A DNA stretch of 33,891 nucleotides from an uncultured Spirochaetaceae bacterium (GCA_944389055.1 CALXKY010000004.1:1-33891), one strand, 5' to 3'; shown: positions 15,603-21,695, counted from the stretch's first letter. The notes: generated by a model from the sequence alone, not told the origin. A program made the numbers and translations.

Positions 15603-16214
15603 ATGGAGGAGAAGAAACGAACGAAGGCCGAATACCGTAGCTCGCTGAGATCCAAGCGCCTCATTCGCGAAGCGCTTATTACCATGATGCGCGAGAAGCC
15701 ATTCGAGAAGATCACAATTACCGATATCGTGAAGACAGCTGATATAAACAGAGGTACGTTCTATGCCCATTATAAGGATATCGGGGAGGTCCTCAGCTCG
15801 ATCAAGGAGCTCGCGATTGCAGAGCTTTCCGCTGCTTTCGACGGAATGACGCCTGATATCATCCTGGCTAATCCACGGCCGCTCTTTGATTCGCTTACGG
15901 CGCTTCTGATGAAGGACAGGGAGTACTACAGGCTGATCTTCGCGGTTGAGGAATTCCGCGAGTCTGTCATGGAATCGAGATTCCGCATCGCGGACTATCT
16001 GATGAAATCGACATCGGTCCAGCATCTGGCAACGGACTCTTCACAGCGGGCGAAGCTTACAGGATCGCTTGATTTCCTTCTTTCCGGGATCATCGATCTC
16101 TATACCGATGTGCTCTGCGAGAAGGTCCCGCTCGATCTTGAGTCGCTCCCTGAGATCATGACGAAGCTTTCCGGAAGCGTAGTGAAGCAGCTGACCGAGC
16201 AGTCTGTCAGATGA
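15603..16214 (+). CDS. TetR/AcrR-family transcriptional regulator
   Basis: A 203-residue regulator. The helix-turn-helix domain covers about residues 15-65 (RLIREALITMMREKPFEKIT, then DIVKTADINRGTFYAHYKDIGEVLSSI). The C-terminal helical domain (about 75-200) resembles the TetR-like C-terminal domain of DhaS-type proteins. The ligand and targets are unknown. The frame is open to 15534, but GGGAGG seven bases before the ATG at 15603 sets the start. TTCATT and TAAACT (about 15552-15579) are a weak possible promoter. It stands alone, and its last eight bases overlap the 3' end of the J-domain gene on the other strand. Confidence 0.85.
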   Translation: MEEKKRTKAEYRSSLRSKRLIREALITMMREKPFEKITITDIVKTADINRGTFYAHYKDIGEVLSSIKELAIAELSAAFDGMTPDIILANPRPLFDSLTALLMKDREYYRLIFAVEEFRESVMESRFRIADYLMKSTSVQHLATDSSQRAKLTGSLDFLLSGIIDLYTDVLCEKVPLDLESLPEIMTKLSGSVVKQLTEQSVR

Positions 16215-16809
16215 TGCAGCAGCAGGGGAAGAACGGGAAGCAGCAGGGGAAGAATCCCGTGCTTATCCCGCCGAATGAGCGCGAGTAGTCCTCATAAGCG
16301 GATCGCCTGCCTGTGAGCCTGTCACGGAACGCGAGGTATGTCCCGTTTCCAGGTTCCTTTGAAATCGCGGTATTTATATCATTGAGAGCCCCTACCGTAT
16401 CTCCGGTATGGGCTTTTGCGTATGCTGAGAGGTAGTACCAGCGTCCGGAACGCCTTTCTGGCGCAACCGATCTGAGCGCATTCAGTGCCTCGACGAAACG
16501 GCGTGCGTTTATGTATGCAACTGCCGCGCGGAGCTCTATCGGCTCCTCCTGGCTGCTGCCGGGATATCCTCCGTATCCGTAGCCGAAGCCATATCCCTGG
16601 CTCTGCTGGCTGCCGTATGAAGAGAAGCTTTCCTTATGGTTTATGATCTGGTCATAGGCAGCGTTGATTTCCTGCATCTTCCTTGCGGCCTCAGGGCTGT
16701 TGCCAGCCACATCGGGATGGTATTTCTTCGCAAGTGTCTTATATGCTTTCTTCACCTCGTCATCGGAGGCATCCGGCCTCAGACCGAGAACGCTGTATGG
16801 ATCGTTCAT
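16207..16809 (-). CDS. J-domain protein with TPR-like region and Cys-rich tail
   Basis: A 200-residue protein, third in an operon with a zinc-ribbon membrane protein and a DUF5685 protein. Residues 3-60 are a J domain with HPD at 31-33, which should stimulate an Hsp70 (DnaK). A Gly/Tyr/Ser-rich linker follows (65-88), then a helical, TPR-like segment (90-165). The last 16 residues (STGFFPCCFPFFPCCCII from 183) hold five cysteines among Phe and Pro and end CCII. The tail could insert in the membrane, bind metal or carry lipid. The start overlaps the DUF5685 stop as ATGA, with AGGA upstream. It is not DnaJ itself: the zinc-finger and substrate domains are absent. The client is unknown. Confidence 0.85.
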   Translation of the reverse strand: MNDPYSVLGLRPDASDDEVKKAYKTLAKKYHPDVAGNSPEAARKMQEINAAYDQIINHKESFSSYGSQQSQGYGFGYGYGGYPGSSQEEPIELRAAVAYINARRFVEALNALRSVAPERRSGRWYYLSAYAKAHTGDTVGALNDINTAISKEPGNGTYLAFRDRLTGRRSAYEDYSRSFGGISTGFFPCCFPFFPCCCII

Positions 16810-17603
16810 TTCCTGTTTTCCTTGAATTTTGACCAGATTCCACTGTATAGGATATTCCTCAGAATGAAAACATGCTGATCGAGAGGCAGACGCTCGAACG
16901 CAGCTGAGGCAGCCGAGGCGGCATCGAGGAGCATCTGGCGCATGTTCTCTTCGCTGATATCCTCCGGAAGCGGGTTGTATGAACCGGATCTGGCATCCTT
17001 CTTTCTGTCGCACCAGGCATCCATGAGGTAGATGAAGCGGCCGAGCCCGCAGCCGAGGCTCCTGAGATCATCCCTGAAGAAAGATGTGTCATCGTATACG
17101 AAGACCTCTCCGAGGATCGTTCCGAAGAGAAGAGACATCCTTTCCGCATCGCGCGAGTTCTCCTTTTCTCCTGCCGTGATCGCCTCAAGCCCTTCCCTGA
17201 CGGCGGCAGCGATTCTCGGATACTTCTCCTCAAGGCGCGGGAGGAGTGCGCGCATCTTCTTCTCCTCTGCCTTTCCCTTTCCTTCATCATTCACCTTGTC
17301 GAGGAGGGAATAGTAGCCCAGCAGCATCTGCATGTCCGCAGCATAGGCTGTGAATGGAGTCACGGTATAGGCATGTTCCCTGACTGGATGCGGAACGCAT
17401 CTCTCCATCCCCTTCGTCTCTTCTGAATCCGTGAGATCCGAAAGCGTCATCTCGAGGAATACCATATCGTAGGAGAGGGCGAGCATGGCCTTCTGGCCAT
17501 AGTTTCCCCTCAGCACCCTGCAGAGCCCGCAGTAGTGGGCCTTGTATTCTTCCTTCTCCTCCTTTGAAAGCGAGGAGGCATTGGCAAGCACATAGCCGAA
17601 CAT
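16806..17603 (-). CDS. DUF5685-family protein
   Basis: A 265-residue, mostly helical protein. It matches my memory of DUF5685 proteins of Clostridia: MFGYV at the start, then HYCGLCRVLRGNYG with the CxxC pair at 25 and 28, and LSYDMVFLEM. No function is known to me. Two acidic helices stand out: LLDKVND (D102, D106) and YLMDAWCDRKKD (D195, D199, D203), the latter followed by GSYNPL. Their spacing recalls the paired Asp motifs of all-helical terpenoid synthases, but that is inference only. It begins one base after the zinc-ribbon gene and overlaps the J-domain gene by four bases, so the three proteins are made together and probably act together. Confidence 0.8.
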   Translation of the reverse strand: MFGYVLANASSLSKEEKEEYKAHYCGLCRVLRGNYGQKAMLALSYDMVFLEMTLSDLTDSEETKGMERCVPHPVREHAYTVTPFTAYAADMQMLLGYYSLLDKVNDEGKGKAEEKKMRALLPRLEEKYPRIAAAVREGLEAITAGEKENSRDAERMSLLFGTILGEVFVYDDTSFFRDDLRSLGCGLGRFIYLMDAWCDRKKDARSGSYNPLPEDISEENMRQMLLDAASAASAAFERLPLDQHVFILRNILYSGIWSKFKENRK

Positions 17604-17604
17604 A

Positions 17605-18024
17605 TCATGTCCTCTTCACGAACTGATGCCCGCAGTGCGGACACGTTATCCTGATCTTGCCCTTTCCCTTCGGAACCCTCAGCTCCTTGCGGCATTCAGG
17701 GCAGCGGAAGTATGCATGTGTCTTCTCGTCTTCCTTCCGCGCGGCCTTTGCCTTCCTTTCCTCTTCCTTCTTCCTTGCTATCTCCGCATCGCGGCGGAAG
17801 AGGGAGAGGAACTTCTCATTCTCGGCACGCCGCTTCGCGGTGGACGTGCTGAGCATCCTCCAGGCAGCAACAGCGACCAGCACAAGGGCTGCCGCGCTTA
17901 CTATGATGCGTGCTGTCTCATCTGTCATTACCGAAGCAGCTGTGGCAAGCACAAGCGCCGCTGCTGTAAGGAATACGGATAGTGCATCGGAGCCATTGCG
18001 CCCCGAGAAGAAACCATTAGCCAT
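17605..18024 (-). CDS. Two-helix membrane protein with C-terminal zinc ribbon
   Basis: A 139-residue protein, first of a three-gene operon. It starts MANGFFSGRNGSDALSVFL and has two hydrophobic helices (about 15-32 and 38-57), then a long charged helix (65-100, rich in Lys, Arg and Glu) and a zinc ribbon with CPEC (108-111) and CPHC (129-132). Both ends should face the cytoplasm. Similar proteins occur beside DUF5685 genes in Clostridia as far as I recall. No Shine-Dalgarno sequence precedes the ATG; a strong promoter ends six bases before it, so the operon mRNA is probably leaderless. Function unknown; the layout suggests a membrane anchor that recruits a partner. Confidence 0.78.
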   Translation of the reverse strand: MANGFFSGRNGSDALSVFLTAAALVLATAASVMTDETARIIVSAAALVLVAVAAWRMLSTSTAKRRAENEKFLSLFRRDAEIARKKEEERKAKAARKEDEKTHAYFRCPECRKELRVPKGKGKIRITCPHCGHQFVKRT

Positions 18025-18030
18025 AGAATG

Positions 18031-18059
18031 AATATCGCAATCAGAGGAAGAGTTGTCAA
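18031..18059 (-). promoter_or_regulatory. Sigma-70 promoter of the zinc-ribbon/DUF5685/J-domain operon
   Basis: On the minus strand TTGACA (18059-18054), a perfect -35, lies 17 bases before GATATT (18036-18031). Six bases later the ATG begins, so transcription starts at or beside the start codon. Confidence 0.75.
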
Positions 18060-18858: not shown

Positions 18859-19242
18859 ATGAGTCAGTACAATACAAGGCAGAAGAGCAGGGTCATTTCC
18901 TTCTTCGCATCGGCAAGCAGCCGTGCATTCACTCCGGAAGAGGTGGCAGCGTCATTGCCCGATGTCCCGAAATCGACTGTCTACAGGATCATGAAGCAGC
19001 TTTCTGATGATGGCTGCCTGAGGAAGACGGGTACAAGCGGCAGGAGCGCTGTCTATCAGTATCAGGGGAAGGACTGCACGAGCCATATGCATATCAGATG
19101 CAAGGCATGCGGGCGGACCGAGCATCTCGATGCAGCCACGACAAGGCAGATTGAGGCCCTCGTATTCACCGATTCAGGCTTCGAAGCCCTTGATTCCACC
19201 GTTTTCGAAGGCCTCTGCAGTGAATGCAGGAGGCGCGGATGA
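18859..19242 (+). CDS. zur: Fur-family zinc regulator (Zur)
   Basis: A 127-residue Fur-family repressor. The winged helix occupies about 1-70, with the recognition helix in VPKSTVYRIMKQL. The dimerisation part has the structural zinc site of two CxxC pairs, CKAC (81-84) and CSEC (120-123), and the metal-binding stretch SHMHIRCKACGRTEHLD. Family members sense iron, zinc, manganese, peroxide or haem; zinc is inferred from the znuACB genes that follow. It is slightly short at the N-terminus. The promoter lies nine bases before the ATG with no Shine-Dalgarno sequence, so zur is probably translated from a leaderless mRNA, and a palindrome over that promoter points to self-repression. Confidence 0.88.
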   Translation: MSQYNTRQKSRVISFFASASSRAFTPEEVAASLPDVPKSTVYRIMKQLSDDGCLRKTGTSGRSAVYQYQGKDCTSHMHIRCKACGRTEHLDAATTRQIEALVFTDSGFEALDSTVFEGLCSECRRRG

Positions 19243-20171
19243 GACTCTTTGCCATCATCATGATTGTCATTTCACTCTTCTCCTCCTGCTCGCGGAGCAG
19301 CGGAGAGGAGACCGGCTTCTCGATTGTTGCCGCTGACTTTCCCTCCTACGATGCCGCGCGGGCGGTGCTCGGGGGGACTTCCGGTCTGACGATGCTCCTT
19401 CCTCCAGGTATGGAGAGCCACAGCTATGATCCGACGCCCCGCGATATGGTCCGTCTCTCCGGATGCGATCTGGTGGTGTATGCTGGAGGCCCTTCGGATG
19501 AATGGGTGCGCACGATACTCTCATCCCTCGAGGATTCTCCTTCCTCATTTGCGCTCACCGACCAGGTGGAGCTGCTCTCTGAGGAACGGCGGGAGGGCAT
19601 GGAGGCGGAGGAGCATGACCATGATCATGATCATGCTGCGCACGATATCGACGAGCATGTCTGGACGAGTCCCGTGAATGAGATCGCGATCGTGAGGAAT
19701 CTTGCGGCGCTCATTTCATCGCTCGATCCCGATAATGCAGATAATTACATGGCGAATGCGGATGCATATACCGAAGCAATCAGTGATATCGACAGAAGGA
19801 TAAGGGAGACTGTGGAGAACGCAGAGCGCAATACGCTCATCTTCGCTTCGCGCTTTCCTCTTCTCTATTTCGTGCGTGAATACGGGCTCGATTACTATGC
19901 GGCCTTCCCGGGCTGCGCTGAAGAGACGGAGCCGAGTGCAAGGACTGTCGCGTTCCTCATAGACAAGGCCAGGGAAATGGATGTTCCATGCATCCTCAGC
20001 ATCGAGATGTCGTCACCGCTCATTGCGGAGGTGATTGCCGATGAGGCGGGGTGCGGCGTGCGCGTTTTCTATACGATGCACAATGTCACCGCCGCGGATT
20101 TCATGAGCGGCAGGAACTATATTGATTTCATGGAGGAGAACATCGATGTTCTCTCGGAGGCGCTGAATTGA
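19239..20171 (+). CDS. znuA: Zinc ABC transporter substrate-binding lipoprotein
   Basis: A 310-residue cluster A-I binding protein for zinc. The leader MRLFAIIMIVISLFSSC places a lipobox Cys at 17. Expected ligands include H61 (GMESHSYDP) and H140 (DEHVW), with a His/Asp-rich loop (126-140, EEHDHDHDHAAHDIDEH) typical of zinc transporters. Where classic ZnuA has a third His before the GYF motif, this protein reads ASRFPLLYFVREYGLDYYAAFPG, with Arg instead; clostridial relatives I recall share RFPF here, so it is a distinct subfamily, with MHNVT perhaps giving another ligand. The start overlaps zur as ATGA with AGGAGG upstream. Confidence 0.9.
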   Translation: MRLFAIIMIVISLFSSCSRSSGEETGFSIVAADFPSYDAARAVLGGTSGLTMLLPPGMESHSYDPTPRDMVRLSGCDLVVYAGGPSDEWVRTILSSLEDSPSSFALTDQVELLSEERREGMEAEEHDHDHDHAAHDIDEHVWTSPVNEIAIVRNLAALISSLDPDNADNYMANADAYTEAISDIDRRIRETVENAERNTLIFASRFPLLYFVREYGLDYYAAFPGCAEETEPSARTVAFLIDKAREMDVPCILSIEMSSPLIAEVIADEAGCGVRVFYTMHNVTAADFMSGRNYIDFMEENIDVLSEALN

Positions 20172-20878
20172 CGCTTATAGAAGGAAAGGATCTAACTCTC
20201 GGCTACGAGGGGCAGGGTATAATCTCGTCGCTTTCATTCTCCGTCGGGGAGGGTGATTACCTCTGCATAGTCGGTGAGAACGGTTCAGGTAAGAGCACAT
20301 TCGTGAAGACGGTTCTGGGACTTGTCGAGCCGCTCAGGGGGGATATCATCTATTCAGGCGGACTGAGGAGGAATGCAATAGGGTATCTTCCGCAGGTTTC
20401 AGGCATCCAGCGGGATTTCCCGTCATCGGTGATGGAGGTCACGCTCTCCGGGTGCCTTGGCAGGCATCGCCGGCTCTTCGGATACTCAAGCGCGGAGAAG
20501 CAGCGTGCGCTTTCCATACTCGGAAGCCTCGGAATGGGAGATAGGATCTCCGCCTCATTCCAGGAACTTTCCGGAGGACAGCAGCAGCGCACGCTTCTTG
20601 CAAGGGCGCTCATGGCAACGGAGAAGCTTCTTTTCCTGGATGAACCATCAGCAGGCCTTGATCCCCGGACATCCAGTGAGCTCTATTCGATACTGCGGGA
20701 CCTCAATGCTTCGGGCATCACGATCATGATGGTCACGCATGATATCCATCCTGCCCTCAACGATGCACGCACGATACTCCATCTCTCACATGGCCGGTAT
20801 TTCTTCGGCCCGAAGGAGGCATATTTCGCTTCGGATATGGGAAAGGAATTCCTGAAGGAGGCCGGCCATGATAAGTGA
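20168..20878 (+). CDS. znuC: Zinc ABC transporter ATP-binding protein
   Basis: A 236-residue ATPase powering metal import through ZnuB. Walker A is GENGSGKST (37-45), the Q loop is YLPQVSG, the signature is LSGGQQQR, Walker B is LLFLDEP and the switch His is in VTHD. Start codon TTG overlaps the znuA stop (TTGA) with GGAGG eight bases upstream, so translation is coupled. It overlaps znuB by 11 bases. No other operon role is needed to explain it. Confidence 0.93.
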   Translation: MTLIEGKDLTLGYEGQGIISSLSFSVGEGDYLCIVGENGSGKSTFVKTVLGLVEPLRGDIIYSGGLRRNAIGYLPQVSGIQRDFPSSVMEVTLSGCLGRHRRLFGYSSAEKQRALSILGSLGMGDRISASFQELSGGQQQRTLLARALMATEKLLFLDEPSAGLDPRTSSELYSILRDLNASGITIMMVTHDIHPALNDARTILHLSHGRYFFGPKEAYFASDMGKEFLKEAGHDK

Positions 20879-21695
20879 GATGCTTTCGTATCCGTTCATA
20901 GTCAGAGCGCTTCTGGCTGGTCTTTTCGTCTCCGTGGCCGCCTCGCTTCTCGGCGTGAGCCTCGTGCTTCGCCGATTCTCGATGATAGGGGATGGGCTGT
21001 CCCATGTGGGCTTCGGAGCGCTGGGCATTTCCGCATTGCTGTCACTCCAGCCTATGGCCGTGACGATTCCGGTTGTGATCGTATCCGCCTTCGTCCTTCT
21101 CCATATCTCGGGGAAATCCAGAAGCGGCGGGGACAGTGCAATCGCGCTCATATCATCATCGGCGCTCGCACTCGGGGTCATTGCAGTCTCTGCAGCAGGG
21201 GTCAATACCGATCTCAATGCATTTCTCTTCGGATCGATTCTCTCCGTGTCCCGTACCGATAGCCTGATAGCCGCAGCAGTCTCCGCTGCGACAATCTTCT
21301 CATATCTTGTCTTCTACCATCAGATATATTCCACGACATTCGATCCCTCATTTGCCAAGGCGACCGGAATCAGCACAGGCCGCTATACTTCGCTTCTGGC
21401 ACTGCTCACGGCGCTTGTGATCGTTGTCGGGATGAGGATCCTGGGCTCCCTTCTGATCTCAAGCCTGATCATATTCCCTGCAGCGATCGCCATGAAGCTG
21501 ATGCGGAGATATGCCACGGTTTCCATTGCCGCTGCAGCGGAAGCCGTGCTTGCATTCATCGCAGGCTTCGTGCTCTCATACGCGTTCTCGCTCCCCACCG
21601 GAGCCAGCATCGTTGCTGTCCATATGGTTATCTATCTTACGGCATCTGCAGCAAGGTCCATCATCATACTTGCGAGGGAAAGGAGGGCACCATGA
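20868..21695 (+). CDS. znuB: Zinc ABC transporter permease
   Basis: A 275-residue membrane permease of the ABC-3 family with about eight hydrophobic segments. Family marks are LLGVSLVLRRFSMIGDGLSHVGFGALG near the N-terminus (the LRR..M.GDGLSH stretch contacts the ATPase) and GMRILGSLLISSLIIFPAAIA later. It forms the channel of the ZnuACB importer. AAGGAGG precedes the ATG; the gene overlaps znuC by 11 bases and the flavodoxin gene by four. Confidence 0.93.
   Translation: MISEMLSYPFIVRALLAGLFVSVAASLLGVSLVLRRFSMIGDGLSHVGFGALGISALLSLQPMAVTIPVVIVSAFVLLHISGKSRSGGDSAIALISSSALALGVIAVSAAGVNTDLNAFLFGSILSVSRTDSLIAAAVSAATIFSYLVFYHQIYSTTFDPSFAKATGISTGRYTSLLALLTALVIVVGMRILGSLLISSLIIFPAAIAMKLMRRYATVSIAAAAEAVLAFIAGFVLSYAFSLPTGASIVAVHMVIYLTASAARSIIILARERRAP

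Follow-up and report, generated by a model that had tools for sequence, protein, structure and literature searches.

ComQ and PalQ are proteins resembling trans-isoprenyl diphosphate synthases (trans-IDS), and they prenylate a Trp residue of a peptide (PMC5331326, PMC10853753). In both systems the gene for an enzyme of the isoprenoid-synthase superfamily adjoins the gene for a small protein substrate (ComQ/ComX and PalQ/PalX), the acceptor residue lies near the C-terminus of the substrate, and the Asp motifs of the enzyme are altered as compared with those of farnesyl diphosphate (FPP) synthases. Prenylation of Cys in proteins has been described for eukaryotes, and the bacterial peptide prenyltransferases in the literature covered here act on Trp and other residues (PMC13290415, PMC5331326). 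J-proteins carrying a lipid are also known: palmitoylation of the Cys string is required for the membrane targeting of cysteine-string proteins (CSP) (PMC4447612), and the function and localisation of the yeast J-protein Ydj1 depend on prenylation of its C-terminal Cys (PMC9927470). In protein farnesyltransferase (FTase), the Cys thiol is a ligand of Zn (PMC9141697). Here we describe an operon in a 33,891-nucleotide stretch of DNA (the window) from an uncultured Spirochaetaceae bacterium, whose Spirochaetota genome amounts to 1.8 Mb over 174 contigs; in this operon the gene of DUF5685, a protein with a predicted trans-IDS fold, adjoins that of a J-domain protein with a cysteine-rich C-terminal tail. 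We propose, tentatively and as a reading close to but short of probable, that DUF5685 is a transferase of the trans-IDS fold, which would attach an isoprenoid to the tail cysteines and so anchor an Hsp70 co-chaperone at the membrane.

The DUF5685 system has the arrangement of ComQ and PalQ, namely a trans-IDS fold, here predicted, and an adjoining gene whose product carries the candidate acceptor, here the tail; the likeness is one of fold and gene arrangement. It differs in that ComQ and PalQ modify Trp of secreted peptides or of ribosomally synthesized and post-translationally modified peptides, whereas the candidate acceptors of DUF5685 are several Cys of a cytoplasmic J-protein, and in the invariant Cys triad that DUF5685 has in addition. 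In the open-access literature, no function was found for DUF5685, for PF18937 or for the operon; DUF5685 is mentioned once, in passing, for a hypothetical C. difficile R20291 protein that carries it as a domain (PMC9403866). The operon consists of three tightly packed open reading frames (ORFs) on the minus strand, in the order ZnR-TM (a zinc-ribbon protein with transmembrane (TM)-like segments), DUF5685 and J-protein:

17605-18024, minus strand: ZnR-TM, 139 aa
16806-17603, minus strand: DUF5685 (PF18937), 265 aa, predicted trans-IDS fold
16207-16809, minus strand: J-domain protein, 200 aa

ZnR-TM and DUF5685 are separated by 1 base, and DUF5685 and the J-protein are joined by an ATGA overlap. 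The positions of the three ORFs, the 1-base gap and the 4-base overlap had been given by an earlier reading of the window from its sequence alone (the sequence-only reading), and all were confirmed.

DUF5685 of the window matched the profile PF18937 with an E-value of 3.4e-77 (259.9 bits against a gathering cut-off of 26.7). AlphaFold2 (AF2), run without templates on 74 homologues, gave a model with a predicted local distance difference test score (pLDDT) of 95.2 and a predicted template modelling score (pTM) of 0.92, and this model matched trans-IDS over residues 7-264. The best VIA-align match was the hexaprenyl diphosphate synthase of S. solfataricus, with Z 18.1 over 230 of the 265 residues on a scale where chance likeness alone can take helical bundles to about 14, and 50 of the 50 listed PDB entries were trans-IDS-fold proteins. 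Foldseek also returned the trans-IDS family, with weak E-values (2e-3 or weaker). Sequence searches of Pfam, NCBIfam and the PDB gave no significant relative of DUF5685, and none of the 74 members matched PF00348, the polyprenyl synthase family, at E-values up to 10. When the sequence profile was compared with the PDB, the top row was a trans-hexaprenyltranstransferase, aligned at the second Asp motif and far from significant (E 0.49). In hhalign, which was informative in local mode only and not in global mode, the Asp motifs of DUF5685 were placed on the first and second aspartate-rich motifs (FARM and SARM) of PF00348 (P 0.0036, with no accuracy cut), by pairing YYSLLDKVNDE with YSLIHDDLPCMD and LGRFIYLMDAWCD with LGLAFQIKDDILD. 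Every complete copy of DUF5685, even the divergent ones, keeps Y24, C25, C28, C69, D102, D106, D195, D199, D203 and N210, most of which fall in the following motifs:

17520-17531, minus strand: invariant C25xxC28, which together with C69 may form a metal or thiol site (alignment)
17388-17399, minus strand: C69 (invariant) and H72 (main lineages only) (alignment)
17286-17300, minus strand: first Asp motif D102xxxD106, at the FARM position (alignment, hhalign)
16995-17021, minus strand: second Asp motif D195xxxD199xxxD203, at the SARM position, followed by N210 (alignment, hhalign)

Computation thus supports the predicted fold and the motifs, which point to DUF5685 being a relative of the trans-IDS. 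It resembles the PF00348 synthases in the predicted fold and in the positions of the two Asp motifs, but differs from them in the lack of a profile match, in the reduced Asp motifs, in an extra beta-hairpin at residues 63-81 and in the Cys triad. In addition, the IPP-binding (isopentenyl diphosphate) motif GGKRxRP and the RRG after FARM, both strongly conserved in the PF00348 set, have no counterpart among the invariant residues of DUF5685, and the missing GGKRxRP argues against IPP as the acceptor; some other Arg/Lys columns of DUF5685 are more than 80% conserved. The sequence-only reading had taken DUF5685 for a helical protein of unknown function, a description that gives way to the predicted fold with its motifs; neither this fold nor the cysteine-rich C-terminus of the J-protein had been noticed there.

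The J-protein matched PF00226 (65 bits, E 6.8e-18), and consists of a J domain, a low-complexity linker, a repeat resembling the tetratricopeptide repeat (TPR) and a C-terminal tail. The DnaJ zinc finger and the C-terminal substrate-binding domains of class A/B DnaJ were not matched in it.

16639-16803, minus strand: J domain (PF00226), with HPD at 16711-16719
16273-16539, minus strand: helical TPR-like repeat (residues 91-179) in a confident part of the model, with weak TPR matches
16210-16272, minus strand: C-terminal cysteine tail GGISTGFFPCCFPFFPCCCII, low-confidence model, probably disordered

The cysteine-rich C-terminus of this protein is GFFPCCFPFFPCCCII, and the tail was modelled by AF2 at a pLDDT of about 50. 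In 78 J-proteins of this kind, Cys makes up 15.5% of the last 40 residues versus 0.22% elsewhere; the final residue is Cys in 52 of them, and a Cys occurs within the last two residues in 65. The last 28 residues contain 22% Cys, 2.4% acidic and 5.1% basic residues. Tails of the main lineages are hydrophobic, with 2-10 Cys at variable spacing and a Cys at the very C-terminus, and one tail Cys column is shared by all 30 rows of an alignment of repeat plus tail (A7). The tails have no common CaaX box, ending CC, CCC, CxC or otherwise, and it is Cys, not Trp, that is conserved in them. Apart from the tail, the 78 proteins contain no TM-like segment, and in 15 of them the tail is hydrophobic enough for membrane insertion.

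CSP (DNAJC5) likewise combines a J domain and a cysteine string in one co-chaperone. The string of CSP lies away from the extreme C-terminus, and CSP differs further in being acylated, in having no TPR-like repeat and in having no known DUF5685 partner; the likeness is probably convergent. Ydj1 differs in its CaaX box and in its heterodimeric alpha/alpha-barrel farnesyltransferase, to which the fold of DUF5685 is unrelated. FTase and geranylgeranyltransferase (GGTase) would be alike only if the mechanism proposed below is right, in moving a prenyl group to a thiol, possibly with the aid of Zn2+; the alpha/alpha-barrel, the alpha/beta heterodimer and the CaaX box all set them apart from the DUF5685 system.

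The partners of DUF5685 were surveyed in 398 Bacillota genomes, drawn evenly, where DUF5685 was counted when it scored over the profile cut-off. It was present in 44 genomes, and in 34 of these its partner was an adjoining J-protein with a cysteine tail. Four loci (L188 and L193-L195) have a partner with the cysteine tail and without a J domain; in L193-L195 it is a 123 aa protein of TPR and cysteine tail, and the tail motif CCECMGGDFISCC is common to it and the J-domain partners. At one further locus (L187:3053-4183), a His-/Cys-rich C-terminal tail is fused to DUF5685 itself, and this fusion stands one gene from a PF00348 polyprenyl synthase. When the same genomes were searched with the A7 model (confident, E below 1e-10), all 32 confident matches were in DUF5685-positive genomes and adjoined DUF5685; the remaining 5 matches were weak and stopped before the tail. 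Among 41 spirochaete genomes, the tail protein was present in 11 of 11 with DUF5685 versus 0 of 30 without it (one weak partial match being ignored), counts that come from related genomes and are not independent events. Four Spirochaetota genomes have a divergent lone DUF5685 with no adjoining J-protein gene, and in these a J-TPR-cysteine-tail protein is encoded on another contig (example tail, CLDCLTCLCCFNCLCDSCS). Computation supports a partnership that ties DUF5685 strictly to the tail rather than to the J domain.

The gene neighbourhood was compared at two distances. DUF5685 was present in 35 of 35 genus-mates searched, and each of the 29 loci examined from the genus has ZnR upstream and the J-domain gene downstream of it. 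A further 80 loci from other genomes in GTDB were the best DUF5685 matches to one query, with a search model built solely from the genus of the window and one other spirochaete; this set, mostly Clostridia, is biased towards the query. The J-domain gene was directly 3' of DUF5685 in all 80. ZnR was detected in 56 (34 upstream, 22 downstream), and no copy was detected in 24, some of which are short contigs. An Hsp70 gene joined the operon in 10. The gene order is constant across the 29 genus loci, and so is the pairing of DUF5685 with J across the 80, which shows that the arrangement is conserved and not due to chance; function is favoured over inertia, because ZnR changes side and the association is kept. 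DUF5685, J-protein, ZnR and Hsp70 were the only recurrent neighbours; of the other two large clusters, one was an antisense reading frame and the other consisted of ABC-transporter-type ATPases, and no recurrent acyltransferase gene was found. The constant unit is DUF5685 with the cysteine-tailed J-protein, and the computation supports ZnR and Hsp70 as optional additions. The sequence-only reading had proposed a three-gene machine, which would fall if the genes parted in other genomes with DUF5685. The association stood, so that this condition for refutation did not arise, but an obligate three-gene unit was rejected, since ZnR is missed at part of the loci and also occurs in genomes without DUF5685.

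ZnR of the window has the following features:

17845-17991, minus strand: hydrophobic segments, residues 12-35 and 35-60, two TM-like segments
17632-17703, minus strand: cytoplasmic-type CPxC...CPxC zinc ribbon, C108-C131, after the TM-like segments

A confident full-length ZnR was found in 30 of the 398 Bacillota genomes, of which 14 also encode DUF5685 at any locus and 16 lack it. Six of 14 ZnR loci away from DUF5685, in DUF5685-free Firmicutes, have a J-domain protein nearby (L213, L214, L216, L217, L220 and L222). This J-protein has a hydrophobic, membrane-spanning N-terminal half, a C-terminal J domain and no cysteine tail. ZnR and the membrane-spanning J-protein are a second, undescribed membrane J-protein pair. 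It is as if the tail replaced the TM anchor, since tail-less TM J-proteins stand beside ZnR where DUF5685 is absent, and ZnR thus keeps company with J-proteins of the membrane, which are held there by TM helices in the one case and presumably, in the other, by the cysteine tail found together with DUF5685.

Modification of the tail by DUF5685 is suggested, as the most economical reading, by the prenyl-diphosphate fold, the flexible C-terminus carrying thiols and the strict co-occurrence with the tail, and also by the fusion in cis at L187 and the TM-anchored J-proteins that serve as a replacement elsewhere. The precedents are ComQ and PalQ for the enzyme, CSP and Ydj1 for lipid-anchored J-proteins, and FTase for a thiol on Zn. 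From these we infer catalysis, an isoprenoid donor, a thiol acceptor, membrane anchoring and clients as follows. DUF5685 would bind a prenyl diphosphate via Mg2+ on D102xxxD106 and D195xxxD199xxxD203, and would move the prenyl group onto Cys residues in the tail of the partner J-protein; the C25/C28/C69 triad may hold Zn2+, a putative site that would activate the acceptor thiol. The prenylated tail would tether the J-protein to the membrane's inner face, where the J-protein, with ZnR where present, could bring DnaK to membrane clients, and in some species a dedicated Hsp70 encoded in the operon might take the role of DnaK. The membrane-linked chaperone suggested by the sequence-only reading is plausible in the form of an Hsp70 co-chaperone at the membrane, and the Hsp70 genes in the operon agree with it. 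In its widest form, the proposal is a widespread bacterial lipidation system, undescribed in the literature covered, in which a possibly zinc-assisted DUF5685 S-prenylates several Cys of a J-protein, giving an analogue of CSP and a membrane-tethered Hsp70 pathway; such a system would span Clostridia, Spirochaetota and Thermotoga, T. maritima, the one control genome, carrying DUF5685. We regard this whole, S-prenylation and range together, as a serious possibility that is still somewhat doubtful. If true, a bacterial enzyme would lipidate a chaperone, with the modification in about 11% of the sampled Bacillota genomes (44/398), DUF5685 would be assigned a function, and bacteria would have a cysteine-string chaperone of their own, convergent with the neuronal one.

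Several results weigh against a prenylated tail. The Asp motifs are reduced (DxxxD and DxxxDxxxD) and not the classic DDxxD; 5 of the 44 Bacillota DUF5685 genes have no detected adjoining tail partner, with no confident tail-domain match genome-wide; a PF00348 synthase was found in 0 of 48 genomes of the genus of the window, which leaves the usual donor of geranyl diphosphate (GPP) or FPP unexplained there; and tails of divergent clades are more polar, sometimes with a His run before the Cys (YYDHHHHSDGCSACD; HHHHDCCCDCC). This last point keeps alive the main rival, that the Cys string serves as a binding site for a metal (Zn, Cu or Fe) or for an Fe-S cluster, and that DUF5685 loads or matures the tail while J/Hsp70 drives the transfer, on the model of HscB/HscA acting for IscU. 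The invariant Cys triad, the zinc-ribbon partner, the His-run and Cys tails, and a Zur-like regulator with znu zinc-uptake genes about 0.8 kb from the operon would all suit it. The tails of the main lineages, hydrophobic, poor in acidic residues and variable in Cys number and spacing, are unlike a defined metal site, however, and this rival would leave unexplained the trans-IDS fold and the retention of the two Asp motifs at their positions in it, so that we consider metal binding unlikely. The tail may instead be S-acylated or insert unmodified, with DUF5685 as a non-prenylating carrier or solubiliser of the lipid or the tail. Eukaryotic cysteine-string proteins are indeed S-palmitoylated and not prenylated (PMC4447612), and 15 of the 78 tails are hydrophobic enough to enter a membrane; but the strict conservation of Asp and Cys in very divergent homologues suggests catalysis rather than carriage, and no acyltransferase recurs among the neighbours, which makes this route distinctly unlikely.

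DUF5685 could also be a small-molecule isoprenoid enzyme, a prenyl diphosphate or terpene synthase, with the J-protein as its regulator or chaperone at the membrane and not its substrate. The trans-IDS fold is as expected for this, as is a PF00348 polyprenyl synthase near divergent DUF5685 at L187, L189 and L192 (and at L190 by inspection of an incomplete ORF), genes that are equally compatible with a prenyl donor for the proposed transferase. The absence of a PF00348-family trans-IDS from the genus of the window also speaks for such an enzyme. UppS (PF01255) was present in 13 of 13 genus members checked, but three sister genera without PF00348 and without DUF5685 keep UppS as well, so DUF5685 is dispensable as an FPP synthase, and Clostridia possess both PF00348 and DUF5685; DUF5685 as the replacement FPP synthase of this genus is thereby weakened. 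As GGKRxRP and RRG also lack invariant counterparts, and the persistence of a J-less or DUF5685-fused tail would be unexplained, a small-molecule role appears quite improbable. Very improbable, in our view, is a three-part membrane assembly or chaperone machine with DUF5685 as a structural or adaptor subunit: the three genes are together in 56 of the 80 GTDB loci and all 29 genus loci, and Hsp70 adjoins in 10, but ZnR is undetected in 24 and present in at least 16 genomes without DUF5685, and the trans-IDS fold with its conserved acidic motifs points to an enzyme. An anti-phage defence system was also considered and rejected, as PADLOC models match neither DUF5685 nor the J-protein and gave one weak zinc-ribbon match.

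At L189 and L192, the stretch with a divergent DUF5685 lacking a tail partner also encodes Hsp70, a PF00348 polyprenyl synthase and a membrane protein, the last of which resembles DUF2232 in L189. At L190, where DUF5685 likewise has no cysteine-tail partner, there are an ORF resembling a polyprenyl synthase and a protein with weak likeness to DUF2232, and no Hsp70 was seen.

Upstream of the operon in the window lies one promoter-like element:

18031-18059, minus strand: promoter-like site TTGACA-17-GATATT, a consensus match only

The site stands 5' of ZnR-TM, scores 10/12, and has a TG before the -10. The strong promoter of the sequence-only reading is borne out as a pattern. The -10 ends only 6 bases before the ATG of ZnR-TM, and therefore the operon transcript may be leaderless. 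Beyond it, at 18859-21695, the window encodes a Fur-family (Zur-like) regulator together with ABC-type zinc uptake genes (ZnuA, an ATPase and an ABC-3 permease); this group starts about 0.8 kb past the operon and is transcribed away from it.

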